NCBI GenBank assembly: GCA_949299755.1
Contig: CASGBA010000006.1
Coordinates: forward strand, 62,001 to 126,000
Source of the DNA: an uncultured Treponema sp.
Lineage (GTDB): Bacteria; Spirochaetota; Spirochaetia; Treponematales; Treponemataceae
DNA length: 64,000 bases
Direction of reading: 5' to 3'
Below the pieces are notes generated by a model, which was not told the origin of the DNA, made no database searches, and saw nothing but the letters and a program-made list of their open reading frames with translations. The translations under genes were made by a program, and so were the position numbers. Below, one piece after another: positions 48,061-63,789 of the stretch; within the stretch, counting starts at the first letter, position 1, and each line of letters opens with the position of its first letter.

Positions 48061-49437
48061 TCAGCTGGCATAAGTTGCGATAAATACGCCCGCAGCAACC
48101 GCCGTGCCGATTACGCCGGAAACATTGGGCCCCATGGCGTGCATCAGCAGGAAGTTGGAAGGATCATACTCCTGTCCGACTTTATTGGACACACGGGCAG
48201 CCATCGGGACGGCGGAAACCCCGGCGGAACCAATCAGCGGATTGATTTTCTCCCGCAGGAACAGGTTCATGAATTTCGCCATCAGAACGCCGCCCGCAGT
48301 CGCTACCGCAAAGGCAAACAAACCGAGCAGAATAACGCCCAGCGAGCTGGGGTTCATGATTTTCTCCGGCGTCATCTGGGATCCGACGCCAAGCGACAGC
48401 AGGATCGAAACAATATTCAGCAGTTCGTTTTCCATGGTTTTGGACAAACGGTCCACGACGCCGCACTGTTTCACAAAATTACCGAACGCAAGCATACCGA
48501 TCAGCGGTGCAGCCGGCGGAATCAGCAGGATGGCCAGAAGCAAAAGCGAAATCGGGAACAGAATCTTCTCCACGCGGGAAACGTGGCGGAGCTGTTTCAT
48601 TTTGATTTTCCGCTCTTTTTCCGTCGTCAAAAGCTTCATAATCGGCGGCTGAATCATCGGTACAAGCGCCATATAAGAATATGCCGCCACAGCAATAACC
48701 GCCATCATGGGTTTCGCAAGCTTGGAAGCCACATAAATCGACGTCGGGCCGTCCGCACCGCCGATAATGGCAATCCCGCAGGCTTCGAACATATTGTATT
48801 CGACGCCGGGCAGCAGATTCATCAGCGCAACACCGAACAGCGTCACAAATACGCCGAGCTGCGCCGCACCGCCGAGGATTGCCGTTTTCGGATTTGCAAT
48901 CAGCGGACCGAAATCCGTCATGGCGCCGATCCCCATAAAGATGAGCATCGGGAAAAACTCGTTTCCGACACCGGCGTCATAAATGATTTTGAGCATACCG
49001 TGCTCGCCGTACATTCCGCCGCCGGGGATATTGACCAGAACCGTACCGAATCCGATCGGAATCAGCAGCAACGGTTCAAAACCCTTGCCGGCGCCAAGAT
49101 AAATCACCAAAAAGCCGATCAGAATCATCACCAGTCTGGCCCAACCGGGAACGATGGTTGTTTTTTCCGGATCCACCAGATCCTGGACTTCCTCTTCCCC
49201 GTTGATGATGGCATTCAAACCCGTGGTTTCCGCCGTATTCACCAGGAATTCGCCGACTGAAATGGTCGGGACGTCTTCGGATCCCCGGATCGGAACGTCC
49301 ATATGGAATATGGACGGACGCGAACCGTCGTCACCGCTGGCGAACACCGTGCCCGCCAGCGAGTACACCAAGGCAACAGCGAGAACCGCAACCGTGATGC
49401 TGAGAATCTTTTTGCTGGATTTCCCGTTATTTAACAT
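48061..49437 (-). CDS. oadB: Na+-pumping oxaloacetate decarboxylase, beta subunit
   Basis: The beta subunit is the membrane channel that couples decarboxylation of carboxybiotin to sodium export. The 458-residue product has a signal-like N-terminal helix, an exported loop, then about nine helices. Family motifs are GIGAMTDFGPLIANPKTAIL, the IIGGADGPTSIYV loop with the ion-site aspartate, and SAGVSAVPMAARVSNKVGQE. Related methylmalonyl- or glutaconyl-CoA decarboxylases share this subunit. The OadA partner has an oxaloacetate-type domain order, which favours oxaloacetate. AAGGTGG precedes the ATG, nine bases after oadA. Confidence 0.94.
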   Translation of the reverse strand: MLNNGKSSKKILSITVAVLAVALVYSLAGTVFASGDDGSRPSIFHMDVPIRGSEDVPTISVGEFLVNTAETTGLNAIINGEEEVQDLVDPEKTTIVPGWARLVMILIGFLVIYLGAGKGFEPLLLIPIGFGTVLVNIPGGGMYGEHGMLKIIYDAGVGNEFFPMLIFMGIGAMTDFGPLIANPKTAILGGAAQLGVFVTLFGVALMNLLPGVEYNMFEACGIAIIGGADGPTSIYVASKLAKPMMAVIAVAAYSYMALVPMIQPPIMKLLTTEKERKIKMKQLRHVSRVEKILFPISLLLLAILLIPPAAPLIGMLAFGNFVKQCGVVDRLSKTMENELLNIVSILLSLGVGSQMTPEKIMNPSSLGVILLGLFAFAVATAGGVLMAKFMNLFLREKINPLIGSAGVSAVPMAARVSNKVGQEYDPSNFLLMHAMGPNVSGVIGTAVAAGVFIATYAS

Positions 49438-49446
49438 ATATCCACC

Positions 49447-51513
49447 TTACTGAATTTCAGCCAGTACCTGACCGGCTGTGATCGCCGCACCGGGAGCCAC
49501 AAGGAAATGCACCTTTCCGGCAGACGCCGCTTTGATTTCCAGTTCCATTTTCATGGACTCAATGATGATGACCGTCTGTCCGGAAACAACCGGGGAACCT
49601 TCCGCAACCGCATGTTTTAGCAGCGTACCGGCAACCGGAGCCGGAAGCGGGGCGCCGCCCGCAGACACGGCAGCCTGCGGGGCAGGCGCGGCCTGGGGAG
49701 CAACGGGCTGCGGGGCGGGAGCTGCCTGCGGGGCAGGCGCGCCGCCGCCGATTCTGCCCAGCAACTGGCCGGCGGAAATCGCCGCACCCGGCGTCACGGA
49801 ATACGAAACCGGACCGTCAGCCGTGGCTTTAACTTCCAGTTCCATTTTCATGGACTCAATCATAATCACCGTATCGCCGGATTTCACCTGGGAACCGGCA
49901 GGCGCGACAAGCTTCAGCACAGTACCGGCAACCGGAGCGGTAATATCCGCACCGCCGGCAGAAGCCGGGGCGGCAGGCGCAGAAGCAGGTGCAGCGGAAG
50001 GCGCTGCAGAAGCGTCCTTGAAGGCGACGGAATAGGAAACGCCGTCCACCGTGAGCGCGCCATCCGAAGAAGTGACAGCATAATCACGGCCATTCACCGA
50101 AACCACGTATGATCCGCCGGCAGAAGAGGCGGCTTTGCTGACCACGAAGGAATCGGAAGAAACCGGACCCTTGGCGCGGTCCTGGAAGAATTTCGGCGCA
50201 ACCTTGGGGAACATCGCATAGGTCAGCGTGTCCTCTTCGGAGCCGTCGCCGCCGGCAGCCTTTGCTTCTTCCACCATCTTTTCCCATTCGTTGGGGATGA
50301 GGTCGGCGGGACGACATTCAACCGGCGCGTCCATATTGTTCTGCTTCAGCGCTTCTTTCAGCAATTCTGCGTTTACCGGCGCCGGCGTCTTGCCGTACTT
50401 GCCTGTAACCAGATCGCGCGTTTCCTGTGTCAGGCGGGCGTAGCGGCCGAACAGAACGTTAAACACCGCCTGCGTACCGACAATCTGGCTGGTGGGCGTA
50501 ACCAGCGGAATATAGCCGCAGTCCTTCTGCACCACCTGAATTTCCTTGAGCACATCGTCAATTTTATCGGAAGCGCCCTGCTCTTTCAGCTGGTTTTCCA
50601 GATTGGAGAGCATTCCGCCTGGTACCTGGGAAGCAAGGATACGCGTATCGGCGCCCAGGAAGCTGGATTCAAATTTGGCATATTTTTTGCGGACATCGCG
50701 GAAATAAGCGGCGATTTCCAGCAGCGTATTCAAATCCAGACCGGTATCCATGTCGGTACCTTTCAGCATCTCCACCACCGTTTCCGTGGGGCTGTGCGAC
50801 GTTCCCATCGACATAGACGAAATTGCGGTATCCAGAATGTCCGCGCCGGCCTCTGCGGCTTTCAGCAGCGTAGCCACGGACAAACCGGTTGTGGCGTGGG
50901 TATGGATTTCCACCGGCAAATCCACCTTGGCTTTGATGGCTTTCACCAGATCATACACTTCAAACGGTTTCAGCAAACCGGACATATCTTTTATACAAAT
51001 TGAATCCGCGCCGAAATCCGCATAGGACTTGGCCAAATCCGCGTAAATTTCTTTTGTGTGGTACGGCGTGGTGGCGTAGGAAATCGCCATCTGTACGTGC
51101 TTGCCGGTTTTTTTCGCCGCATCCGTCGCGCGTTTCAGGTTACGGGGATCATTACAGGCATCGAAAATACGGAAAACGCCGATACCGTTTCTGGCGGCAG
51201 CTTCCACGAAATGATCCACAACATCATCGGCATAATGACGGTAACCAAGAAGGTTCTGTCCCCTCAAAAGCATCATGATAGGGGTTTTAGGCAAGGCTTT
51301 GTGAAGGGTACGAAGCCGTTCCCACGGATCCTCATTCAAAAAGCGGATGCAGGAGTCAAATGTTGCCCCGCCCCAGCCTTCCAGACTCCAATAGCCGATG
51401 GAATCCAGCTTGTCGCAAATCGGAAGCATATCCGCCGTTGTCATGCGGGTAGCATGCAGGCTCTGATGCGCATCCCGTAAAACCAAATCCGAAATTTTCA
51501 CTTTCTTTCCCAT
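49447..51513 (-). CDS. oadA: Oxaloacetate decarboxylase alpha subunit with two biotin domains
   Basis: OadA moves carboxyl from oxaloacetate to biotin. The carboxyltransferase domain starts VLRDAHQSLHATRM and carries the metal-site histidines in VEIHTHATTGLSVATLLKA. A conserved OadA/pyruvate-carboxylase domain follows (about 300-470). The C-terminus then has two complete biotinyl domains, each with IESMKMELE: biotin lysines at about residues 556 and 655, joined by an Ala/Pro-rich linker. A single domain is the norm. The length of 688 residues exceeds the usual 590 or so for that reason. AAGGAG precedes the start; 12 bases follow oadG. Confidence 0.96.
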   Translation of the reverse strand: MGKKVKISDLVLRDAHQSLHATRMTTADMLPICDKLDSIGYWSLEGWGGATFDSCIRFLNEDPWERLRTLHKALPKTPIMMLLRGQNLLGYRHYADDVVDHFVEAAARNGIGVFRIFDACNDPRNLKRATDAAKKTGKHVQMAISYATTPYHTKEIYADLAKSYADFGADSICIKDMSGLLKPFEVYDLVKAIKAKVDLPVEIHTHATTGLSVATLLKAAEAGADILDTAISSMSMGTSHSPTETVVEMLKGTDMDTGLDLNTLLEIAAYFRDVRKKYAKFESSFLGADTRILASQVPGGMLSNLENQLKEQGASDKIDDVLKEIQVVQKDCGYIPLVTPTSQIVGTQAVFNVLFGRYARLTQETRDLVTGKYGKTPAPVNAELLKEALKQNNMDAPVECRPADLIPNEWEKMVEEAKAAGGDGSEEDTLTYAMFPKVAPKFFQDRAKGPVSSDSFVVSKAASSAGGSYVVSVNGRDYAVTSSDGALTVDGVSYSVAFKDASAAPSAAPASAPAAPASAGGADITAPVAGTVLKLVAPAGSQVKSGDTVIMIESMKMELEVKATADGPVSYSVTPGAAISAGQLLGRIGGGAPAPQAAPAPQPVAPQAAPAPQAAVSAGGAPLPAPVAGTLLKHAVAEGSPVVSGQTVIIIESMKMELEIKAASAGKVHFLVAPGAAITAGQVLAEIQ

Positions 51514-51525
51514 AGTGTCGGCTCC

Positions 51526-51765
51526 TTACGTTTTATCCTTCACCGCGGCCGCGATGGCTGCCACAACCGCCGTATCCTGTGCTGTTCCTGCCGCAGGCGC
51601 AGCGGCCGGAGTGTCTTCCGCTTCTTCTTTGTCCCATCCGAAGGCTTTCACCAAAAAAGCGACAATCTTCATAAAACAAATCAGAATGATGAGGAAGGAA
51701 AACACGACGCACATTCCCAAAACGGTCAGAATTCCGCTCTGACCCAGCATTTCAGGTATTGTCAT
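51526..51765 (-). CDS. oadG: Oxaloacetate decarboxylase gamma subunit
   Basis: OadG is the small membrane subunit that helps assemble the decarboxylase. The start at 51765 follows TGGAGG, giving 79 residues. It has one membrane helix (ILTVLGMCVVFSFLIILICF) followed by an Ala/Pro-rich tail. No C-terminal His cluster for zinc is present, unlike some OadG proteins. It is first in oadGAB, behind its own promoter. Confidence 0.88.
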   Translation of the reverse strand: MTIPEMLGQSGILTVLGMCVVFSFLIILICFMKIVAFLVKAFGWDKEEAEDTPAAAPAAGTAQDTAVVAAIAAAVKDKT

Positions 51766-51793
51766 AAAACCTCCAAACAATCTGTCCCGTTTA

Positions 51794-51822
51794 ATCTTAA
51801 CGTAATTTTTTTTATTATTCAA
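51794..51822 (-). promoter_or_regulatory. Promoter of oadGAB
   Basis: On the minus strand: TTGAAT (51822-51817), exactly 17 bases, TAAGAT (51799-51794), 29 bases before the oadG ATG. It allows oadGAB to be transcribed separately from the upstream fumarate-reductase genes. Confidence 0.65.
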
Positions 51823-51961: not shown

Positions 51962-52216
51962 TTATTTTTTAATACGATTCAGAATACGCTCTTCAAAAAA
52001 AGCCGGGAAATTTTCCCGTGTAATGCCGGTTACCATTTCCCCGTCAACCTTCATGTTGACACCTCCGGAAGCACATTCCCCAAAACAAATTGAGCCTGAA
52101 ATATCAACTTCTTTTTCCAGTCCGTTATCGGCAACAGCTTTCTGGAGCATAGCCAGAATATCTTTGGAACCCCGGACATGGCAGGAACTGCCCAAACATA
52201 CAGCCACATTAATCAT
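51962..52216 (-). CDS. Thioredoxin-like [2Fe-2S] ferredoxin (NuoE-like)
   Basis: The 84-residue protein has the four-cysteine pattern of NuoE-type domains: CLGSSC (residues 7-12) and CFGEC (44-48). Such domains carry electrons in NADH-linked hydrogenases and related complexes. It starts behind GGAG and sits downstream of the fumarate reductase genes, so it may be an extra electron carrier for the Flx-Hdr module. Confidence 0.88.
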   Translation of the reverse strand: MINVAVCLGSSCHVRGSKDILAMLQKAVADNGLEKEVDISGSICFGECASGGVNMKVDGEMVTGITRENFPAFFEERILNRIKK

Positions 52217-52252: not shown

Positions 52253-52558
52253 TTAATTTTCAGAGGAAGCCGCCCTGTCCTGATTCCGCTCAATACTCTT
52301 ATTGCGGAAATAAAGACATATATCAGTGGCAACCATAATTAAATTCGGCCAGTAAAATATAAATGCAAGATTGAAGCTTCCGGTCATAAATTTATTTATA
52401 AGACCGCAAATATAACCAATTTCTATAAAGCACATAAATAAAAGGCTTTTTCCTTTCGTAGACCGTGAACGGTATGAACGCAGGATAGAAAGAGGCCAGG
52501 ATATTCCGAAACAGATTATCATTGCTGTTTCAAAAAAAGAAGCTACTGTCATTTCCAT
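52253..52558 (-). CDS. Small three-helix membrane protein, PQ-loop/SemiSWEET-like
   Basis: The 101-residue product has three membrane helices and the segment SWPLSILRSYRSRSTKGKSL. This matches the PQ-loop pattern (P..I..R+S.G.S) with WP in place of PQ. Such half-transporters dimerise to move small solutes. Given its place right after frdA, a dicarboxylate transporter is a possible but unproven role. It has no histidines placed for haem, so it is unlikely to be an Frd membrane anchor. GGAGG precedes the ATG. Confidence 0.65.
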   Translation of the reverse strand: MEMTVASFFETAMIICFGISWPLSILRSYRSRSTKGKSLLFMCFIEIGYICGLINKFMTGSFNLAFIFYWPNLIMVATDICLYFRNKSIERNQDRAASSEN

Positions 52559-52598: not shown

Positions 52599-54218
52599 TT
52601 ATTTTAAAACGTTACCGGCACGGGGATTCCCGTGGCTATAGGAAGGCAAAAGCCTTGGCGAAATCTCAGGATCAGCGATACCCGCCGCCTTCCGTTCCTC
52701 CGCAAACCTTTTTACGTGTTCCAAAGAAAGTTTTCCCGTGGATGCATTTTTGGATGCGGCGGCGGCACTTAATCCGGCGCTTCTTCCGAAAACAATGATA
52801 TCAAGAAGAGAATTTCCCATCAAGCGGTTACGCCCGTGGATTCCACCAACCGCTTCTCCGGCCACAAAAAGGTTGGGAACCGCGGACATACAATCCGCGG
52901 AAATATCTATGCCTCCGTTCTGGTAATGCAGGGTCGGATAAACAAGGATAGGCTCTTTCCGGATATCAATTCCGTATTTGCCGAACATACGCATCATGGC
53001 GGGAATCCTTTTTTCGATGGTTCCCTCTCCGTTTTTCAACTCAATCATCGGTGTATCAAGCCACAAGCCCTTTCCGCCGGGAGTAGTTAAACCTTTGTTT
53101 CTCTCACCGCATTCACGGATAATTGAGGCGGCGGAAACATCACGGGTTTCCAATGGATGCATGAACACTTCCCCGTCCCGGTTTATAAGTTTTGCGCCGA
53201 GGGAACGGACTTTTTCCGTTACGAGGGCTCCGTAAATCTGTTCCGGGAAAGCGGCTCCTGTAGGATGGTACTGGAGAGTATCGGGATACAACAGCTTCGC
53301 CCCGGCACGGTAAGCCAAGACCAAACCGTCCGCAGTGGCACCGTAATGATTTGAGGTGGGGAAACCCTGATAATGGAGACGCCCGGCGCCACCTGTGGCA
53401 ATAACCACAGTTTTAGCCCTGGCTATTTTTATTTCCTTTGTTTCCATGTTAAGAAGGACGGCCCCGGCGGCTTTCCCTGTCTCGTCCAGGATAAGCTCGA
53501 TGGCGGCGGTGAAGTCAATCACTGGGATTCCCCTGTTAAGAACCTCATCCCGGAGGGTACGCATAATTTCAGCGCCGGAATAATCCTTTGCGGCGTGCAT
53601 ACGTTTACGGCTGGTTCCACCTCCATGGGTTGTTATCATCGTTCCATCAGGGGCTTTGTCAAATTCAACACCCAAATGATTCAGCCACAGGATTGCGTCA
53701 GGGGCTTCGGTTACAAGCTTTTTCAAAAGCTCAGGTTTGGCAGCAAAGTGACCGCCTCCGAAAGCATCCAGATAATGCTGGGCCGGAGAATCATTGGGCT
53801 TATCCGCCGCCTGGATTCCGCCTTCAGCCATCATCGTGTTGGCGTCACCGATACGGAGCTTTGTCACCATAACAACCTTCGCCCCCGCCCCATGGGCTTC
53901 GATGGCGGCACTGGAACCTGCCCCGCCGCCACCTATGATGAGCACATCGGCGTCATAATCGGGGGAGGACAAATCCACAGGATAGTTTTCTATCCGGCTT
54001 TTACCCTGGAGAAGGGAGGCAAGCTCTATGGGAACTTTTTCCCCTTTGTTCGGTCCCATTTTCAATTCAGCGAATTCGCTTTTCTTATAGTCAGGATGGA
54101 AAGCGGCCAGAAGGTTGTCCTTCTCTTCAGCTGTCATTCTGCGGGGTTCCATGGCGGCATTGGAATTGCGGTTTGCCGCAACTTTCTTCATGGATTCAAG
54201 CATTTCATCTGTATACAT
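52599..54218 (-). CDS. Fumarate reductase-type flavoprotein
   Basis: The enzyme should reduce fumarate to succinate. After an unusual N-terminal extension of about 88 residues come the FAD motif DVLIIGGGGAGSSAAIEA, catalytic-region segments QYHPTGAAFPEQ, TEKVRSLGAKLINR, ETRDVSAASIIREC and HYQNGGIDIS, and the C-terminal GRNRLMGNSLLDIIVFGRSA. The histidine that binds FAD covalently in FrdA/SdhA is replaced by Asn in DANTMMAEGG, so FAD is probably non-covalent, as in L-aspartate oxidase and the soluble thiol:fumarate reductases. Length 539. No FrdC/FrdD anchor is encoded. Confidence 0.88.
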   Translation of the reverse strand: MYTDEMLESMKKVAANRNSNAAMEPRRMTAEEKDNLLAAFHPDYKKSEFAELKMGPNKGEKVPIELASLLQGKSRIENYPVDLSSPDYDADVLIIGGGGAGSSAAIEAHGAGAKVVMVTKLRIGDANTMMAEGGIQAADKPNDSPAQHYLDAFGGGHFAAKPELLKKLVTEAPDAILWLNHLGVEFDKAPDGTMITTHGGGTSRKRMHAAKDYSGAEIMRTLRDEVLNRGIPVIDFTAAIELILDETGKAAGAVLLNMETKEIKIARAKTVVIATGGAGRLHYQGFPTSNHYGATADGLVLAYRAGAKLLYPDTLQYHPTGAAFPEQIYGALVTEKVRSLGAKLINRDGEVFMHPLETRDVSAASIIRECGERNKGLTTPGGKGLWLDTPMIELKNGEGTIEKRIPAMMRMFGKYGIDIRKEPILVYPTLHYQNGGIDISADCMSAVPNLFVAGEAVGGIHGRNRLMGNSLLDIIVFGRSAGLSAAAASKNASTGKLSLEHVKRFAEERKAAGIADPEISPRLLPSYSHGNPRAGNVLK

Positions 54219-54245: not shown

Positions 54246-54920
54246 TCACTGCTCGATTTCGCGGGTATTATACAACTCTTTTATTTCATCGAGCGGTTTC
54301 TGCATAAGCGACTCTATGAGCTTCGTAAAATCGCCGTTCTTGATTTCAGCGACCCGGTCAATAAGGTGCTTGCACTCAGGGGCGATATATTTTCCGTTAA
54401 GCCGCCTGGCCAGCAAAGCCACCTGGGGATGGGAAATTCCGGCCGGACATCTGGATGAACAAATCCCGCACATAACGCAGTCAAAGGATTCTTCCGCGCA
54501 TTTTTCGTATTCAGCCCGCTGGGCATAGGCAATGTACTGCATTACATTCAAACCCTGGGGACAAGCCTTGGTACAGGCGTTGCAACCTATGCAGCTGTAA
54601 ATTTCAGGGTAAAGCTGCATCATTATCTGCTCGGTGGGGGCGATTTTTTCTATGTCATACACAGCCTTCACCAAAGGGAAAAAGGGAAGCGTAGCCACAT
54701 ACATATTGTCCTCTACCTTGGTCTGACAGGCGAGACACATTTTCAGTTCCCGGTCCCCGGCAATACGGTATATTGTGGCGCAGGCACCGCAGAATCCGTT
54801 ACGGCATCCGCATCCGCGCACGAGCTGGTACCCGGCATATTCCATCGCATTCATGATTGTAAGATTGCCGGGAACTTCATATTTTTTTCCAAAAAGAAAA
54901 ACAGAAACCATTCCTTCCAT
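54246..54920 (-). CDS. Fumarate reductase-type iron-sulfur protein
   Basis: The 224-residue protein has an N-terminal [2Fe-2S] domain (CGCRNGFCGAC with CLAC) and two four-cysteine clusters (CIGCNACTKACPQG, CVMCGICSSRCPAG). Both look like [4Fe-4S], in contrast to the [3Fe-4S] site of respiratory FrdB. It therefore resembles TfrB or HdrC more than membrane-bound FrdB, and lacks the HdrB-like end of TfrB, which here is supplied by hdrB. GAGGT precedes the start; it lies 27 bases before the flavoprotein gene. Confidence 0.88.
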   Translation of the reverse strand: MEGMVSVFLFGKKYEVPGNLTIMNAMEYAGYQLVRGCGCRNGFCGACATIYRIAGDRELKMCLACQTKVEDNMYVATLPFFPLVKAVYDIEKIAPTEQIMMQLYPEIYSCIGCNACTKACPQGLNVMQYIAYAQRAEYEKCAEESFDCVMCGICSSRCPAGISHPQVALLARRLNGKYIAPECKHLIDRVAEIKNGDFTKLIESLMQKPLDEIKELYNTREIEQ

Positions 54921-54955: not shown

Positions 54956-55783
54956 TTAGTACTCGTCGGGAAGCTCATCAAGCTGATCAAATCTAAAAAC
55001 AGGCCCGTCTTTGCAGACATATTTGGGACCTATATTACACCGGCCGCATTTTCCTATGCCGCATTTCATCCTGAGCTCCATTGTGGTATAAACCTGGTCT
55101 TCCTTGAAACCAAGCTCTTTCAATGCGGCAAGGGTGAACTTAATCATTATGGGCGGTCCGCACATCAGGACGGTCTTTCCTGTGTCGGGGTTAAGCTCCT
55201 TCACATAATTCGGTATAAATCCCACATGTCCGTCCCAGTCGGGCTGTTCGTTGTCAATGGTCAGGTTAACTTCCATGGAGGAATCCTTCAGCCATTCATC
55301 CAGGATTTCATGATAGTCAACCAAATCAGCCTTTGACCTGGCACCGTAAATAACCTGGATTTTGCCGTAATTCCCCGCCTTAGCCCTCACATAGTTTATG
55401 ACGGAATGAAGGGGTGCAAGACCGATTCCGCCGGCAATAAACAGCAAATCCTTTCCCTGCAAATCGCTTTCCACAGGGAATCCGTTGCCGTAGGGACCTC
55501 TCACGGTTATCTGCTGGCCAGGCTCGGCGGAATGGAGCCAGCTGGTAAGGTGGCCGCATTTTTTTACGCTGAATTCCATATACTCTTTAACAGTGGGGGA
55601 AGAAGTAATTGAAATCATCGCCTCCCCCACACCGGGAACAGAAAGCATGGCACACTGGCCGGGGATATGCTCGAACATTTTGTTTCCATCGGTGGAAACA
55701 ACCCTGAAGGTTTTTACGTCGGGAGTATCCTGCCGGATATCCGTTATGACACCCACCCGGGGTATCAAGGCTTCTTTTTCCAT
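54956..55783 (-). CDS. flxA: FlxA-type NAD- and FAD-binding subunit
   Basis: FlxA-type proteins take electrons from NADH. A ferredoxin reductase FAD domain, NAD domain (LLFIAGGIGLAPLHSVI, VLMCGPPIMIKFTL) and C-terminal [2Fe-2S] site (KCGIGKCGRCNIGPKYVC) match PyrK/AsrB/sulfhydrogenase gamma proteins. The place next to FlxD and HdrABC makes FlxA the best label. 275 residues. The ATG overlaps the upstream stop (TGATG). Confidence 0.9.
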   Translation of the reverse strand: MEKEALIPRVGVITDIRQDTPDVKTFRVVSTDGNKMFEHIPGQCAMLSVPGVGEAMISITSSPTVKEYMEFSVKKCGHLTSWLHSAEPGQQITVRGPYGNGFPVESDLQGKDLLFIAGGIGLAPLHSVINYVRAKAGNYGKIQVIYGARSKADLVDYHEILDEWLKDSSMEVNLTIDNEQPDWDGHVGFIPNYVKELNPDTGKTVLMCGPPIMIKFTLAALKELGFKEDQVYTTMELRMKCGIGKCGRCNIGPKYVCKDGPVFRFDQLDELPDEY

Positions 55784-56844
55784 CAGCTACCTTCCTTTTT
55801 TGAAGAGGCCTCGGCTGCAAGCGCACGGGAAACCTTTATGATATTCATAGAAATAGGACATTTGATAAGGCAACGTCCGCAACCGACACATCCGTAAACG
55901 CCGTCATTGTTGGCGGGGAAATACACCAGCTTGTGCATGAACCGCTGGCGGAACCGCTCCAACTGGGTGGGACGGGGCTGTCCGGCAGACATTTTCGTGA
56001 AGTCGGAATACATACAGCTGTCCCAACAGCGGAAGCGCTTTATGCCGGAACCGGTGTCAAAGTCACGGATATCATAACACTGGCAGGTGGGGCACACAAA
56101 GGTACAGGTTCCGCATCCAAGACAAGCCTCTGAAAGCTCTGCCCAAAGGGGGGAGGAAAACACCGCTTTAAGGTTTTCCTCGGAGAAAGCATCCGTTTCC
56201 GGAAAAAGCTTCCGGTTTTTCCCGAGGGCCTCCTCTATTTCCTTTTTAGCCGCCGCAACCTTTTCGCCGCAGTCCTTTTCACCGCAGGGAACCAAATCGG
56301 CGCAATTCTTCGCGGCTTCCTCAAACAAAGCCTTTCCCTTTTCCGTCCTGGGCTCAATATAAAGGCTGTCGCCGTAAACCCAGCAGGCCGCGTCCCCTTC
56401 AGGATCGGCGGCGTCAATGTCCAGCTGGGAACAAAAACAGGTATGGGCCGGATTCCGGCAGGCAACGGAAATAATCACGCCGTGCTCCCGCCGGTTTTTA
56501 TAGTATGTGTCAACAGGCTCGGAAAGGAAAACCCTGTCCAGAATGGAAAATGACCTGACATCGCAAGCCCTTACCCCGAAAACAGCGAAATCCTCATGTT
56601 CATCCCGGGTATCTATCACCTCAACGGAATTCCTGTCGAACTTCATGTCAAAAAGGTTTTCAGTCTGGGGGAAAAAGAAATCCTTGGCGCTCCTGTTGGT
56701 ATTAAGGGCGGAACTCCAGTTTTTACCCTCGCTCCACAATTCATAACGGGCTCCGCCATCGGAATCCACCGGAATATACAGTTTCCGCAGGGATGAAAGG
56801 GCTTTGAAAAAGCCGCCGGTTTTATCCAAGGGAAGTTTAAGCAT
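55783..56844 (-). CDS. Flx iron-sulfur subunit, AsrA-like
   Basis: The 353-residue protein carries CLGCGTCTFVCPTCQCYDIR, CWDSCMYSDF and CVGCGRCLIKCP, giving two [4Fe-4S] sites as in anaerobic sulfite reductase subunit A and hydrogenase beta chains. The start at 56844 follows AAGGAGGG and leaves a gap of one base after the upstream gene; an upstream in-frame extension would overlap it by 100 bases and is not used. It is flxB or flxC; which of these names applies is not certain from sequence. Confidence 0.85.
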   Translation of the reverse strand: MLKLPLDKTGGFFKALSSLRKLYIPVDSDGGARYELWSEGKNWSSALNTNRSAKDFFFPQTENLFDMKFDRNSVEVIDTRDEHEDFAVFGVRACDVRSFSILDRVFLSEPVDTYYKNRREHGVIISVACRNPAHTCFCSQLDIDAADPEGDAACWVYGDSLYIEPRTEKGKALFEEAAKNCADLVPCGEKDCGEKVAAAKKEIEEALGKNRKLFPETDAFSEENLKAVFSSPLWAELSEACLGCGTCTFVCPTCQCYDIRDFDTGSGIKRFRCWDSCMYSDFTKMSAGQPRPTQLERFRQRFMHKLVYFPANNDGVYGCVGCGRCLIKCPISMNIIKVSRALAAEASSKKEGS

Positions 56845-56845
56845 T

Positions 56846-57766
56846 TTAATTACCCTCCTTTGCCGCAGCCGCGGAACGGGTATAAACCACTGACGGTTCC
56901 TCATCATCCGTAGAGAAAATGTTGAGAGGCGCCTTTGTTTCAGTATCCTCACCGGCTTGGAAAGTACCGTAAATTTCGTTTATATCCTTTATGAATTTAC
57001 GGTTAAGAAGATGAAGGGGGATTTGCTGGGGGCAAACCCTGGAACATTCCCCGCAATCCGTGCACCGGCCGGCCACATGAAACGCACGGATTATATGGAA
57101 CATATTTTCCTCAAAGGAATCCGCCGCGGCTTTCTGGGAAATGCCGGAATCCGGGTTGTCAAAAACACAGAGTTCGCAGGAACAAGCCGGGCACACATTC
57201 CGGCATGCGTTGCACCTGATGCAACGGGAAAGCTCACCCCTCCAGAATTCATAGCGCTGTTCCGGAGTCATTGCTTCAAGCTCAGCGACCTTGGTAAAAC
57301 GTCCGCTATCCTTAACTTCCCCGTCTTCGCCTATAAGCTCGTCGAAAACAACGTGTTTTGTGCTTTTACATACGCCGCATCTTTCTTCAAACCTGGCGTC
57401 CTCTATTGTACCGCCTTCAGGCACATCCTTGAACTCGTGGCAGGGAATTCCGATTACATAAACGTTTTCCCGTATTATCCTGTGTTCCTTCACAAGTTGA
57501 TTGAAGCTGTAAGTATCACAGGGTTTCAGGAAAGCTAGGATTTTACCCTCTTTTTTGGACTGGGCAATTAAATACTTGGAAAGGTTCGCCCCGCAGAATT
57601 CATTGTACACAAAAGAAGTGTCAAGCTCCCCTGCGTTTGAAAAAATACCTGGCGTGACATCGTATCCGAAAATACCCTTTTTCCATCCGATTACACGGTT
57701 TACAGTATTGGAGGCAAGAAGGGATTTCGCGCGCTCCAACATTTCTTTTTCTATTCCTTCCTGCAT
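56846..57766 (-). CDS. Flx iron-sulfur subunit, FrhB/FdhB-like
   Basis: The 306-residue protein combines a segment like FrhB/FdhB (ILAFLKPCDTYSFNQLVK, YVIGIPCHEF) with two [4Fe-4S] sites (CIRCNACRNVCPACSCELC, CTDCGECSRVCPQQIP). It probably passes electrons between FlxA and the HdrA core. GGAGG precedes the ATG, which overlaps flxD by 16 bases. It is the second member of the flxB/flxC pair. Confidence 0.85.
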   Translation of the reverse strand: MQEGIEKEMLERAKSLLASNTVNRVIGWKKGIFGYDVTPGIFSNAGELDTSFVYNEFCGANLSKYLIAQSKKEGKILAFLKPCDTYSFNQLVKEHRIIRENVYVIGIPCHEFKDVPEGGTIEDARFEERCGVCKSTKHVVFDELIGEDGEVKDSGRFTKVAELEAMTPEQRYEFWRGELSRCIRCNACRNVCPACSCELCVFDNPDSGISQKAAADSFEENMFHIIRAFHVAGRCTDCGECSRVCPQQIPLHLLNRKFIKDINEIYGTFQAGEDTETKAPLNIFSTDDEEPSVVYTRSAAAAKEGN

Positions 57767-58215
57767 CTTAAATCCTCCAGCCTTCTGTTTTTACCAAGAG
57801 AAGAAACTGTCTTGACAAAATCATTCATTGTCGCCGCGAATTTCGCGCCTTCCGCTGCGGAAACCCACTCAACCCGTGTCCTTTCTTTTTCAATGCCGAG
57901 AAAATCCAACATTGAAAAAAGAAGTGTCATACGTCTTCTTGTGAAATAATTTCCGCTTGTATAATGGCAGTCCCCGGGATGGCAGCCACAGAGGATAACG
58001 CCGTCAGCACCCCTCTGGAAAGCCCGGAGCACAAAAACCGGATTAACACGGCAGGAACAGGGGACACGTATGATTTTCACATCCGCCGGATAATCCAGAC
58101 GGTTAGTTCCGGCAAGGTCTGCACCGGCGTAAGAACACCAGTTGCAGCAAAAAGCCAGGATACGGGGCCGGAATCCTTCCGGCCGGGAATCGGCAGTATT
58201 TTCCGTTATCGGCAT
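57751..58215 (-). CDS. flxD: FlxD/MvhD-type electron-transfer subunit
   Basis: MvhD-type proteins link an electron donor to HdrA. The 154-residue product shows the family cysteines in FCCNWCSYAGADLAG, RVPCSCRVNP and LCGCHPGDCHY and the RRM segment. The start follows GGAGG and overlaps hdrA by ten bases. The companion Flx genes downstream identify the donor as NADH rather than hydrogen. Confidence 0.93.
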   Translation of the reverse strand: MPITENTADSRPEGFRPRILAFCCNWCSYAGADLAGTNRLDYPADVKIIRVPCSCRVNPVFVLRAFQRGADGVILCGCHPGDCHYTSGNYFTRRRMTLLFSMLDFLGIEKERTRVEWVSAAEGAKFAATMNDFVKTVSSLGKNRRLEDLRCRKE

Positions 58216-60212
58216 ATCGCATCAACCTCCGCCATAATTTGAGAATTGGAGAATCCTTTAAGATCCATGGCACCGGAAGGACAGGCAACTGTACAGGCTC
58301 CGCATCCCTGGCATACTGCCTCATTGACAGTGGCCACACGCCTTATAAGAGTCGTCCGGTTGGGACCCCGGAATTCCTTATCCACATAAGTGATTGCTCC
58401 GTAGGGACAAACTTTTTCACAAGAGGAACATCCGTTACACATCATTTCATCGGGATGGGCGATGCACGGGTTTCCGGTAAGTTTATCCTTGGACAAAAGC
58501 CCGATAACCTTTGAGGCGGCGGCGCCCGCCTGGGCCACCGTTTCGGGAATGTCCTTCGGACCCTGGCAAGCCCCGGACAGGAACACACCGGCAGTGGGGC
58601 TTTCGACAGGCCGCAATTTAGGATGGGCTTCCGTAAAAAAGTCATTTGTATCCATACTGGCTGTAAGCATTGTAGCCAAGGGTCTGGCAGTTTTATCCGG
58701 TTCAATGGCAGCTGCCAAAACCACCAAATCGGCGGAAATATGAAGCTGCTTGCCTTCGATTAAATCCGAGCCTTGAACGGAAAGGGTTCCGTCCGGCATG
58801 GGAGCTACTTTTCCCACCATACCTTTTATGTAGTGTACACCGTATTGCTCCACAGCCCGCCTGTAAAATTCATCGAAGTTTTTACCTGGGGTTCTGACAT
58901 CAATGTAAAACACATACACATCCGTGTCAGGATATTTTTCCCGGGTAAGCATGGCGTGCTTTGCCGTGTACATACAGCATATTTTGGAGCAATATTCCTT
59001 TCCGCCTTTCGAACAGGGAGGAGACTCACGGCTTCCCACGCACTGGACAAAAACAATGGTGTGGGGATGCTTTCCGTCCGAAGGCCTCAGAAGAGTTCCG
59101 CTGGTGGGGCCGGCCGCATTGGTAAGCCGTTCAAATTCCAGGGAAGTTATAACGTCCTTACTCTGGGAATAGGCGAATTCATCGTAATTTTCAAGACTTA
59201 TCGGATTGTATCCCGTAGCCACAACAATAGCCCCGTATTGTTTTTCGATGAATTCATCTTCCTGTTTGTAATTAATGGCACCGGTTCCACAAACCTTCGA
59301 GCACACACCGCATTTGCCGCTTTTCAACATCATGCAATAATTGGGATCAATGACAGCAACCTTCGGGACTGCCTGGGCAAAGGGGATGTAAACTGCGGAA
59401 CGGTTATTCATTCCCAGGTTGAATTCGTTGGGAACCTTCCGCTGGGGGCATTTTTCGGTGCAAATACCGCATCCGGTACATTTCGTCTCATCAACGTACC
59501 GGGCTTTTTTCCTGATGGTGACTGTAAAATTACCCACAAACCCTTTTACAGCGGAAACTTCGCTGTAAGAATAGATGTGGATTTTTTCGTTCTGGGCACA
59601 GTCAACCATTTTCGGAGTAAGAATACAAGCCGCACAGTCAAGGGTCGGGAAGGTTTTGTCAATCTGTGTCATCTTTCCGCCGATGGTTGGCTGCTTCTCC
59701 ACAATATCAACTTCAAAACCTGCATCCACTATATCAAGGGCAGTCTGGATGCCGGCTATTCCACCGCCGATTACAAGGGCGCGTTTTGTTACCGGTGACT
59801 CCCCGGCCTTCAGGGGTGCGTTAAGCTGAACCTTTGCTATCGCCGCCCGTCCGAGAACAACCGCCTTTTCCGTGGCGGTAGGCTTGTCCTTATGAATCCA
59901 CGAGCACTGCTCGCGGATGTTAGCCACTTCAACCATATATGGGTTGAGTCCGGCTGAAGAAGCCGCCTTTCTGAAAGTGGCCTCATGCATACGGGGGGAA
60001 CAGGAACATATCACCGCGCTTGTAAGTGAATGCTCTTTTATAGCGTTTTTAATAATATTCTGTCCGGCTTCGGAACACATATATTGGTAATCTGTCGAAA
60101 AAACAACACCAGGCTCTTTGCCCAGGGTTTCCGCAACAGCCCGGACATCAACAGTGCCCGCAATGTTAGTACCGCAATGACATACAAATACGCCGATTCT
60201 CTGCATATTCAC
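58206..60212 (-). CDS. hdrA: Heterodisulfide reductase subunit A
   Basis: HdrA holds the bifurcating flavin in known Hdr complexes. The 668 residues contain an N-terminal cysteine site (FVCHCGTNIAG), an FAD fold (ALVIGGGIAGIQTALDIVDA), TFPTLDCAACILTPKMVDC, inserted cluster sites (CTGCGICTEKCP, CGVCSKVCGTG), QCVGSR, and two C-terminal [4Fe-4S] motifs (CNGCSSCEKVCP, CQGCGACTVACP). A GTG start follows AAGGACGG; an ATG two codons later is also possible. It begins nine bases after hdrC. Confidence 0.96.
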   Translation of the reverse strand: MNMQRIGVFVCHCGTNIAGTVDVRAVAETLGKEPGVVFSTDYQYMCSEAGQNIIKNAIKEHSLTSAVICSCSPRMHEATFRKAASSAGLNPYMVEVANIREQCSWIHKDKPTATEKAVVLGRAAIAKVQLNAPLKAGESPVTKRALVIGGGIAGIQTALDIVDAGFEVDIVEKQPTIGGKMTQIDKTFPTLDCAACILTPKMVDCAQNEKIHIYSYSEVSAVKGFVGNFTVTIRKKARYVDETKCTGCGICTEKCPQRKVPNEFNLGMNNRSAVYIPFAQAVPKVAVIDPNYCMMLKSGKCGVCSKVCGTGAINYKQEDEFIEKQYGAIVVATGYNPISLENYDEFAYSQSKDVITSLEFERLTNAAGPTSGTLLRPSDGKHPHTIVFVQCVGSRESPPCSKGGKEYCSKICCMYTAKHAMLTREKYPDTDVYVFYIDVRTPGKNFDEFYRRAVEQYGVHYIKGMVGKVAPMPDGTLSVQGSDLIEGKQLHISADLVVLAAAIEPDKTARPLATMLTASMDTNDFFTEAHPKLRPVESPTAGVFLSGACQGPKDIPETVAQAGAAASKVIGLLSKDKLTGNPCIAHPDEMMCNGCSSCEKVCPYGAITYVDKEFRGPNRTTLIRRVATVNEAVCQGCGACTVACPSGAMDLKGFSNSQIMAEVDAICR

Positions 60213-60221
60213 AACCGTCCT

Positions 60222-60620
60222 TTATTTTGCGTATTTACGGAATGCCGTCACAAGAGCCTGCTGGGGGATGTCTGTTCCGTTACTGTCCGCAAGGATTTCC
60301 GGAATCTGCTCAGGCTTAAAATGATTTCCCCCCTGCTGCCTGACCACAGCCAGTCTGACGGCTTCCACAAGTTTAGCCGGTTCCACATTGCGCGGACACC
60401 GGTCCACACAGGCAAAACAGGATAAACACATAAAAAGAGAAGGAGAATTAAGAAGAGGGGTTATATTACCGGATTCAACCATGGCAACAAATTGATGGGG
60501 ATGATATTCCATCTCATCATATGCCGGGCAGGTTCCGGAACATTTACCGCACTTCATGCATTTACGGGGATTAACCCCACTGATGCGGACAAGCATTTCA
60601 GATGTAACTTTCCCGTCCAT
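60222..60620 (-). CDS. hdrC: Heterodisulfide reductase subunit C
   Basis: The 132-residue protein has two [4Fe-4S] motifs, CMKCGKCSGTCPA and CLSCFACVDRCP, in the HdrC arrangement. It bridges electrons from HdrA to HdrB. The ATG is one base after the hdrB stop, and hdrA follows nine bases after its stop. Confidence 0.95.
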   Translation of the reverse strand: MDGKVTSEMLVRISGVNPRKCMKCGKCSGTCPAYDEMEYHPHQFVAMVESGNITPLLNSPSLFMCLSCFACVDRCPRNVEPAKLVEAVRLAVVRQQGGNHFKPEQIPEILADSNGTDIPQQALVTAFRKYAK

Positions 60621-60621
60621 A

Positions 60622-61437
60622 TTACGCCGCTCCTTCGGAAACTATGTTCACATTCACGCCTGGAACACCAAGAGCCGCTGCCAGCAACTCCGTGAAATAA
60701 TAAACAGGAAGGGAACCGTCTCCGCTTTTTTTCAGATTATAGAGACAGAGGGGACAAGCTGTGACAAGACAGGATGCCCCCGCCCCGCCGGCGGATTCAA
60801 GGACGGCCGAAGCTTTTTTTCCGGCGAATTCCTCTTTCTCCAGGGTAGCGTATCCGCCGCAGCATTCATTCCTCATGGGATAAATAACCGGATCAGCGCC
60901 TATGGCCCGTATAAAATCCTCAATGATTTTCGGATTTTCCCCGTTGTCCATTTGGAGGACTGAGGCGGGGCGCAACAGGAGGCAACCGTAATAGGCGCTG
61001 ATTTTTTTCCCTGTAAAAGGCGCTGTTACAGCGGAGGCAACCTTGTCAAAGCCCACCACATCACGCAGCACTTCAAGATAATGGAGAACCTTTGTTTCCC
61101 CGTGGTAAGGGTTTTCAAGGGCGAGGTAATTATTCGCCCGCAGGGACATATCGGGATTCACCCTTATTTCGTTGTTCACCTGCTTGATTACATTGTGGCA
61201 GGCGGAACACAGGGTCACAAGATCCCTGCCCTCTTCCCTTGCGGACACAAGGGCGCGCACAGAGGAAAGCTTTGTGGCGATTTCATCCTGCGCCATGGGA
61301 TAAGCCCCGCCGCAGCACTGCCATTCCTTGATTTCCTCAAGCCCGACGCCCAGCTTTTCCATTGCCAGCCGGCCGCACCGGTCAAGCTCCTTTGCCTTTG
61401 TTTTAAGCGTACAGCCAGGATAATAACTGAAAGTCAT
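60622..61437 (-). CDS. hdrB: Heterodisulfide reductase subunit B
   Basis: HdrB carries the non-cubane clusters that cleave a disulfide in methanogens. Two CCG domains are intact: QCCGGAYPM with CSACHNV, and ECCGGYATL with [10 protein letters not shown]. The 271 residues are typical. Spirochaetes lack the methanogen thiols, so the natural partner here is unknown; a protein or small-molecule disulfide, or direct contact with the fumarate reductase, is possible. The ATG overlaps the fumC stop (ATGA), coupling it to the fumarase gene. Confidence 0.95.
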
Positions 61438-62810
61438 ACCATTTGCTCCGGATGAAATACTTCGTCAAATTTCTCCGCGGAAAGGAAACCGAGCTGGACG
61501 CAGGCTTCCTTGAGGGAAATATTTTCTTTGAAAGCTTTTTTCGCCGTCTTTGCGGCATTCTCGTATCCGATATAAGGATTGAGGGCTGTAACCAGCATAA
61601 GGGAGTTGTGCAGGTTATGATGCATTTTTTCCCGGTTGGCTTTAATCCCCACAGCACAGTTATTGTTAAAGGAAACAATTGATTCGGCGAGAAGCCGGGC
61701 AGACTGCAAAAAGTTGTAAATGCACACGGGCATGAAAACGTTCAGCTCAAAGTTACCCTGACTGGCGGCCATTCCCACCGCCACATCATTGCCCATAACC
61801 TGAACCGCAACCATGGTAACAGCCTCACACTGGGTGGGGTTAACCTTTCCCGGCATAATGGAAGAGCCGGGTTCATTTTCAGGGATTGTGATTTCCCCCA
61901 ACCCATCCCTTGGACCGGAAGCAAGCCAGCGTACATCATTGGCGATTTTCATCATGTCGCAGGCCAGAGCCTTTAAGGCGCCGTGGGCAAAGACAAGCTC
62001 ATCCTTGCTGGTAAGGGCATGGAATTTATTCGGCGCAGTGATGAAGGATTTCCCGGTCAGGGAAGAAACGGCATCGGCAACTTTCTCCGCAAACCCTGCG
62101 GGAGCATTCAAGCCGGTTCCTACGGCGGTGCCACCCAGGGCAAGCTGCTTTAATTCGGGAAGAACCTTTTTCAGCATTTCCACGTCTTTTTCCAGGGAAG
62201 AACGCCATCCGCTTATTTCCTGGGAAAAGGTTATCGGAGTGGCATCCTGCAAATGGGTGCGGCCGCTTTTGACAACCCCCTCATGCTCTTTTTCCAGCCT
62301 TTTGAATGTGGAAACAAGCGTATCCACAGCAGGAAGCACCTTGTCTTCTATTATAATGGTTGCCGCTATGTGCATTGCCGTAGGGAATGTGTCGTTGGAA
62401 GACTGACTCATGTTAACATCATCATTGGGATGGAGCAGTTTTTTTCCGGCGATTTCATTTCCACGGTTGGCGATAACCTCATTGGCATTCATGTTCGACT
62501 GGGTACCGCTTCCGGTCTGCCATACAACAAGTGGAAAATGCTCATTGAGGGAACCTGAAATAACCTCGTCACAGGCGGTGGAAATGGCATTGAGTTTCTC
62601 AGCTGTCATTTTTTCAGGTTTAAGTGAATTATTGGCAATGGCTGCGGCCTTTTTCAAAATCCCGAAAGCATGGGTTATTTCCCGGGGCATGGTTTCAATA
62701 CCTACGCCTATCCTGAAATTCTCATGGCTCCTTTCAGTCTGGGCCGCCCAGTATTTATCGGCAGGAACCTTAACCTCGCCCATGGAATCATGTTCAATTC
62801 TATAATCCAT
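61434..62810 (-). CDS. fumC: Class II fumarase
   Basis: FumC interconverts malate and fumarate without an iron-sulfur cluster. The superfamily signature [16 protein letters not shown] is present, with [17 protein letters not shown] and [20 protein letters not shown]. The start at 62810 is chosen because the upstream TTG belongs to its ribosome site (TTGGAGATTTTT). 458 residues. Its stop overlaps hdrB, and malate dehydrogenase lies 28 bases upstream, so malate can be made and dehydrated by adjacent gene products. Confidence 0.97.
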
Positions 62811-62838
62811 AAAAATCTCCAATTCCTAAAACAGAATA

Positions 62839-63789
62839 TTAAAATTTAAGGTTGGAAATAACATCCTTCAAGGCCGCGGCACTTTTCTGAAGCTTCACTA
62901 TTTCATCTTCTTCAAGGGGAGCGGAAATTTTTCCGTGAATACCGTTGCGGCCCACAATTGAAAGGGTGCTCAAACACACATCGTCAATACCGTATTCACC
63001 ACGCATCATGGCGGAAACAGTCATTGTGGTGTCCATGCCGCTGAAAATACACTTGCAGATATGGCAGACAGAAACCGCCACCGCATAAAAAGTGGCGCCC
63101 TTTCTTTGAATGATTTTACCGCCGGATTTGCGGATATAGGTTTCAACTTCTTCGTGCACAAGAGGGGGAAGGATTTTCCTGTCTTTTTCAGACAGACAGG
63201 CTCTGTATTCATCAATAGGTATATTTGAAACATTGGCAAGGGACCAGGGCACAAAGGAGCTGTCACCGTGTTCGCCGAATACATAAGCATGGACATTCTG
63301 CTGGCTGATGGAAAAATATTCCGAAAGCCTGGCTCTGAGACGCGCTGTATCAAGGATGGTACCGGAACCGATGACATGGCCATCAGGAAGACCCGCTGTT
63401 TTATAAAACTGGTAAGTCAGGATATCCACAGGATTGGCCACAATAAGATATATAGCGTTCGGAGCGAATTTCGTTATTTGGGGGATAATCTGACCGGTGA
63501 TGTTGACATTTGCCTGGGCAAGGTCCAGACGGGATTGCCCGGGTTTTCTCGCCAATCCGGAAGTCAAAATGACAATATTGGAGTCTTTCGCATCCTCATA
63601 ACTTCCCGCATAAATTGAACAGGGCGGACAAAAAGGAGTTCCCTGACGGATATCCAAAGCCTCGCCCAAGGATTTTTCGACATTAATGTCAATCATCACG
63701 ATTTCTGAAGCGGTCCCCTGTACTGCCATGGTATAAGCAATTGTGGAGCCTACACTTCCCGAACCTATGATAGTAACTTTGTTTCCCAT
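62839..63789 (-). CDS. mdh: Lactate dehydrogenase-like malate dehydrogenase
   Basis: The 316 residues follow the LDH/MDH fold: NAD loop IIGSGSVGSTIAYTMA, catalytic-loop region GLARKPGQSRLDL, NPVDILTY, GTILDTARLR and VFGEHGDSSFVPWS with the active histidine. Overall it looks like LDH, but the residue that reads the substrate side chain (Gln in LDH) is Arg here (ARKPG), the malate dehydrogenase state. With fumC directly downstream, malate dehydrogenase is the better call. AAGGGG precedes the ATG. It heads the operon. Confidence 0.85.
   Translation of the reverse strand: MGNKVTIIGSGSVGSTIAYTMAVQGTASEIVMIDINVEKSLGEALDIRQGTPFCPPCSIYAGSYEDAKDSNIVILTSGLARKPGQSRLDLAQANVNITGQIIPQITKFAPNAIYLIVANPVDILTYQFYKTAGLPDGHVIGSGTILDTARLRARLSEYFSISQQNVHAYVFGEHGDSSFVPWSLANVSNIPIDEYRACLSEKDRKILPPLVHEEVETYIRKSGGKIIQRKGATFYAVAVSVCHICKCIFSGMDTTMTVSAMMRGEYGIDDVCLSTLSIVGRNGIHGKISAPLEEDEIVKLQKSAAALKDVISNLKF

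Follow-up and report, generated by a model that had tools for sequence, protein, structure and literature searches.

A fumarate reductase flavoprotein with a conserved N-terminal extension, probably belonging to a soluble and quinone-independent system, in an uncultured Treponema

The closest described relative of the system reported here is the "succinate operon" of Pseudoclostridium thermosuccinogenes, in which Flx-Hdr is encoded together with a fumarate reductase. Bifurcation to ferredoxin has been proposed for this operon, whose genes rose together by about 4-fold when CO2 was limiting (PMC7282089, citing for the operon Koendjbiharie and van Kranenburg 2019, a preprint). That NADH drives fumarate reduction with coupled reduction of ferredoxin has only been proposed for this type, and our search of the literature for a bifurcating fumarate reductase, or for one in Treponema, found nothing closer. 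The mode of FAD binding is of importance for the direction of catalysis in this superfamily. Covalent attachment raises the potential of FAD, and soluble fumarate reductases and L-aspartate oxidase, which hold FAD non-covalently, reduce fumarate and are unable to oxidise succinate (PMC9557727).

The window analysed here is a stretch of 64,000 nucleotides from an uncultured Treponema sp. (contig CASGBA010000006.1, assembly GCA_949299755.1). It carries, on the (-) strand throughout, a gene block of the P. thermosuccinogenes type, an operon that unites FrdA and FrdB with fumarase, HdrABC and FlxABCD. The block starts with a malate/lactate dehydrogenase-type protein (62839..63789, named by sequence reading and often present in the block) and a class II fumarase (61434..62822, named by sequence reading alone and conserved in the block). 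These are followed by an HdrB-like protein (60622..61437), an HdrC-like 2x[4Fe-4S] protein (60222..60620), HdrA (58206..60212, 668 aa), an MvhD/FlpD-like [2Fe-2S] protein (57751..58215), a FlxC/D-like 4Fe-4S dicluster protein (56846..57766) and a FlxB-like 4Fe-4S protein resembling sulfhydrogenase beta or AsrA (55783..56952). A FlxA-like FAD/NAD(P)-binding oxidoreductase with a DHODB_Fe-S domain (54956..55783), a FrdB-like iron-sulfur subunit (54246..54920, 224 aa) and, as last gene, frdA (52599..54218) complete the block. HdrA is the candidate subunit for bifurcation at FAD and is matched by HdrA proteins of solved structure (E 8e-210), among them 5odc_A over its length. The block is also found in Ruminococcus flavefaciens and other gut Clostridia, and the order MDH, Fum, HdrB, HdrC, HdrA, MvhD, FlxCD, FlxB, FlxA, FrdB, FrdA is common to most gut loci retrieved. 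By its published description, the P. thermosuccinogenes operon agrees in gene order and includes fumarase, Flx-Hdr, a pair of fumarate reductase genes and a hypothetical protein; it differs in host lineage, which here is Treponema-like. The system belongs to a published, still unproven kind.

Downstream of frdA are genes for a small PQ-loop-like membrane protein of 101 aa (52253..52558, (-) strand; a weak match below cut-off) and for an 84-aa thioredoxin-like [2Fe-2S] protein (51962-52216), each present in 14 of 90 loci. Further downstream (48061-51822) are oxaloacetate decarboxylase-like genes, named by sequence reading as biotin protein, small gamma and membrane beta subunits, which are rarely common to relatives.

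FrdA (539 aa) starts with ATG, and the AGGAG-like sequence ahead of this codon, GCTGAGGAGACGTTT, is a plausible ribosome-binding site. Its FAD fold begins at residues 88-91, and HMMER aligns it with E. coli SdhA and FrdA from residue 86-91 on. FrdA matches PF00890 (FAD_binding_2) with 237 bits, being the only protein in the genome with a match over the whole length of this profile, and retains the substrate-site and catalytic set H318, T334, E335, R338, R359, H431 and R465. The FAD_binding_2 domain and the substrate-site His, Thr, Glu and Arg place it in the FrdA/SdhA superfamily. The best match in a PDB fold search was E. coli FrdA (5vpn, E 1.4e-26), and the AlphaFold2 model of the whole protein, built with a 55-sequence alignment, reached a mean pLDDT of 79 and a pTM of 0.83. 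The fold, the catalytic residues and the partner iron-sulfur subunit are shared with E. coli FrdA/SdhA. On the other hand, the C-terminal SdhA/FrdA domain (Succ_DH_flav_C) gave no profile match in FrdA and is absent from the alignment as well, and the two also differ in the N-terminal extension, in a cysteine of FrdB and in the flavinylation site.

At this last site D125-A126-N127-T128 aligns, with no gaps in the vicinity, with R-S-H-T of the E. coli proteins, so that Asn127 (codon AAC) falls in the column of SdhA His45 and FrdA His44 (45 counting the first Met). The first-pass annotation had noticed an Asn in place of the FAD-binding His and had read it as a mark of flavoproteins with non-covalent FAD that sets the protein apart from respiratory enzymes. 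The comparison supports this reading: in this column SdhA types carry His and E. coli NadB carries Ser, and both the flavocytochrome-c-type paralogues and clostridial NadB have Asn. With N127 in place of His, FrdA falls outside the respiratory complex II flavoproteins with covalent FAD. Asn127 is also ordinary, this position being occupied by Ser or Asn in further lineages known for non-covalent FAD. From the residue itself, those of its relatives and the published behaviour of such enzymes (PMC9557727), FrdA is therefore predicted to hold its FAD non-covalently and to work one-way, as a fumarate reductase. NadB and flavocytochrome c fumarate reductase resemble it in having a non-His residue here and in being soluble, but lack FrdB and Hdr partners and such an extension.

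A scan of species genomes found at least 580 stretches encoding FrdA relatives, of which 80 loci were retrieved, from Ruminococcus flavefaciens, Blautia, Oscillospiraceae, other Clostridia and Treponema. Of 90 family rows, 89 have Asn127, as do 30/30 rows of a Bacillota set reaching down to 57% identity (one of which, L132, comes from the same genome as L089 of the first set), and the residue is therefore not there by chance. Seven relatives from the window's own class keep both Asn127 and the extension. The one exception among the 120 rows compared, L109, has His at the site and is an observation that speaks against a soluble enzyme with non-covalent FAD. It reads GDAHTMM, with codon CAC, in a FrdA encoded from 7996 onward in a single MAG, and the change is either natural or a product of faulty assembly. 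In the tree, FrdA groups with an uncultured Treponema, at a weak support of 80/13, and with three genomes from its own family. As this group is nested within a clostridial clade, frdA may have passed between gut clostridia and Treponema-like bacteria.

The second feature singled out in the first-pass annotation, some 88 residues ahead of the FAD fold without a counterpart in FrdA, proved to be residues 1-87 (53958..54218, (-) strand), which in the alignment are missing from FrdA, SdhA and NadB alike. No match to residues 1-90 was obtained in Pfam (E<=5) or among PDB sequences (E<=10). The extension is nevertheless found in all full-length relatives of FrdA, with V13, R17, H41-P42-D43, G55, N57, G59 and L70 invariant in 55 rows. 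In the whole-protein model it is mostly helical, with block-mean pLDDT of about 80-95. Residues 1-88 folded alone from the single sequence gave a pLDDT of 63.7 and a pTM of 0.23, values that make no fair contrast with the former, as only the whole-protein model had an alignment. The extension is a real, previously undescribed part of FrdA.

Asn127 and the extension had been suggested to provide docking to Hdr-Flx. The extension is indeed conserved in every Hdr-Flx operon seen, and its model confidence is good. Yet it is equally present next to a hydrogenase-Hdr module (L045), next to Hdr proteins without FlxA/FlxB (L043, L044, L047, L167, L168, L170, L173 and L175) and at loci lacking a full Hdr set in the vicinity (L162-164, L166, L171, L172, L177-181 and L194; L177 has HdrB and HdrC only). 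Four genomes with extended FrdA (G531, G221, G447 and G217) gave no HdrA in a search that matched 18 others; of these four, G531 consists essentially of a single 2.65 Mb contig. MvhD was likewise not found in the four genomes, in a search without positive control, and the weight therefore rests on HdrA. As the extension does not fade where Hdr-Flx is absent, and Asn127 persists without Flx or a full Hdr set nearby, docking to Hdr-Flx is unsupported and, as the main role of the extension, was rejected; we regard it as very unlikely. Most likely the extension is a built-in part of the FrdA subfamily that packs on FrdA itself or on FrdB, the intrinsic or FrdB-facing role being favoured because FrdB adjoins FrdA in nearly every locus (one exception, L178, is a second copy in G241). 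The Hdr-less relatives show that FrdAB can use other donors, and the operon therefore does not prove a fixed complex.

Three observations on the relatives may be added. In L045 (9732-19887) a [NiFe]-hydrogenase-like pair, named from sequence reading, forms a single run with HdrCB, HdrA, MvhD, FrdB, FrdA and fumarase-subunit-like genes, with no Flx, possibly a hydrogen-driven version. L178 and L180 have an extended FrdA close to MmgE/PrpD- or PrpF-like genes and L181 has one close to an isocitrate dehydrogenase-like gene, in one case with FrdB lacking; these proteins perhaps act on other substrates. The best HdrA match in each of G403, G427, G183 and G230 contains one in-frame TGA and is a candidate selenocysteine HdrA.

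The TfrA model, which covers residues 88-499, is the best NCBIfam match of FrdA, and as in methanogen TfrAB the system includes a CCG protein, HdrB, with both CCG (noncubane cluster) motifs intact and kept in 80/80 cases. FrdAB could then be a thiol:fumarate reductase, with Hdr-Flx reducing a disulfide and the dithiol in turn reducing fumarate. However, the TfrA score of 338.9 bits (a comparison by profile only) is far below the cut-off of 718, HdrB is a separate gene, FrdB (224 aa against a profile of 488 positions) lacks the fused CCG domain of TfrB, and extended FrdAB exists where no HdrA is found, which together make this route improbable. The intact CCG motifs would still allow electrons to pass from Hdr to Frd by a disulfide/dithiol step.

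It is even less likely that FrdAB is respiratory, or fed by another soluble donor, with the Hdr-Flx genes serving a separate reaction. The relatives in Hdr-less genomes must use some other donor, but here a long conserved gene block joins FrdAB with Hdr-Flx. No UbiA-type prenyltransferase for quinone synthesis was found in the genome (99.2% complete), as against 14/14 control genomes, though quinone might be taken up, and no membrane subunits like E. coli FrdC/FrdD were seen in the block. The third cluster of E. coli FrdB/SdhB, as of quinone-linked enzymes, is of the [3Fe-4S] type. FrdB has a [2Fe-2S] motif and two CxxCxxCxxxC motifs, and its third cluster is not of that type: four Cys are present there in 103/103 rows, the fourth being C151, where the E. 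coli proteins have V/I.

The conserved block, the missing UbiA, the four-Cys FrdB, the RnfC and [FeFe] hydrogenase carried by the genome and the published P. thermosuccinogenes operon all support the view that FrdAB is probably a soluble, quinone-independent fumarate reductase with non-covalent FAD, fed from NADH via Flx-Hdr with concomitant reduction of ferredoxin, and with an extension that belongs to the FrdA subfamily and is no dock specific for Hdr-Flx. In such a system FlxABCD would oxidise NADH, and MvhD would pass the electrons on to the flavin of HdrA, where the pair would be split into two branches. One would lead through HdrC, HdrB, FrdB and FrdA to fumarate, and the other would reduce ferredoxin for later use by Rnf or hydrogenase. 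The lower potential expected of a non-covalent FAD would suit one-way fumarate reduction in fermentation.

A bolder reading, for which we would give somewhat less than even chances, is that the extension defines a subfamily of soluble quinone-free fumarate reductases and mediates FrdA-FrdB assembly. Interchangeable donor modules (NADH-Flx-Hdr, hydrogenase-Hdr and others) would then pass electrons straight to fumarate, which would be the terminal acceptor in flavin-based electron bifurcation, with no disulfide intermediate. The relatives offer a clean test set, in which extended FrdAB is found together with NADH-Hdr or hydrogenase-Hdr and also where Hdr is absent. Soluble FrdAB is probably the enzyme with which many gut bacteria form succinate from NADH. 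If the coupling holds, making succinate without quinones would let rumen and gut bacteria conserve energy via ferredoxin and Rnf, and would bear on their balance of NADH, hydrogen and succinate.
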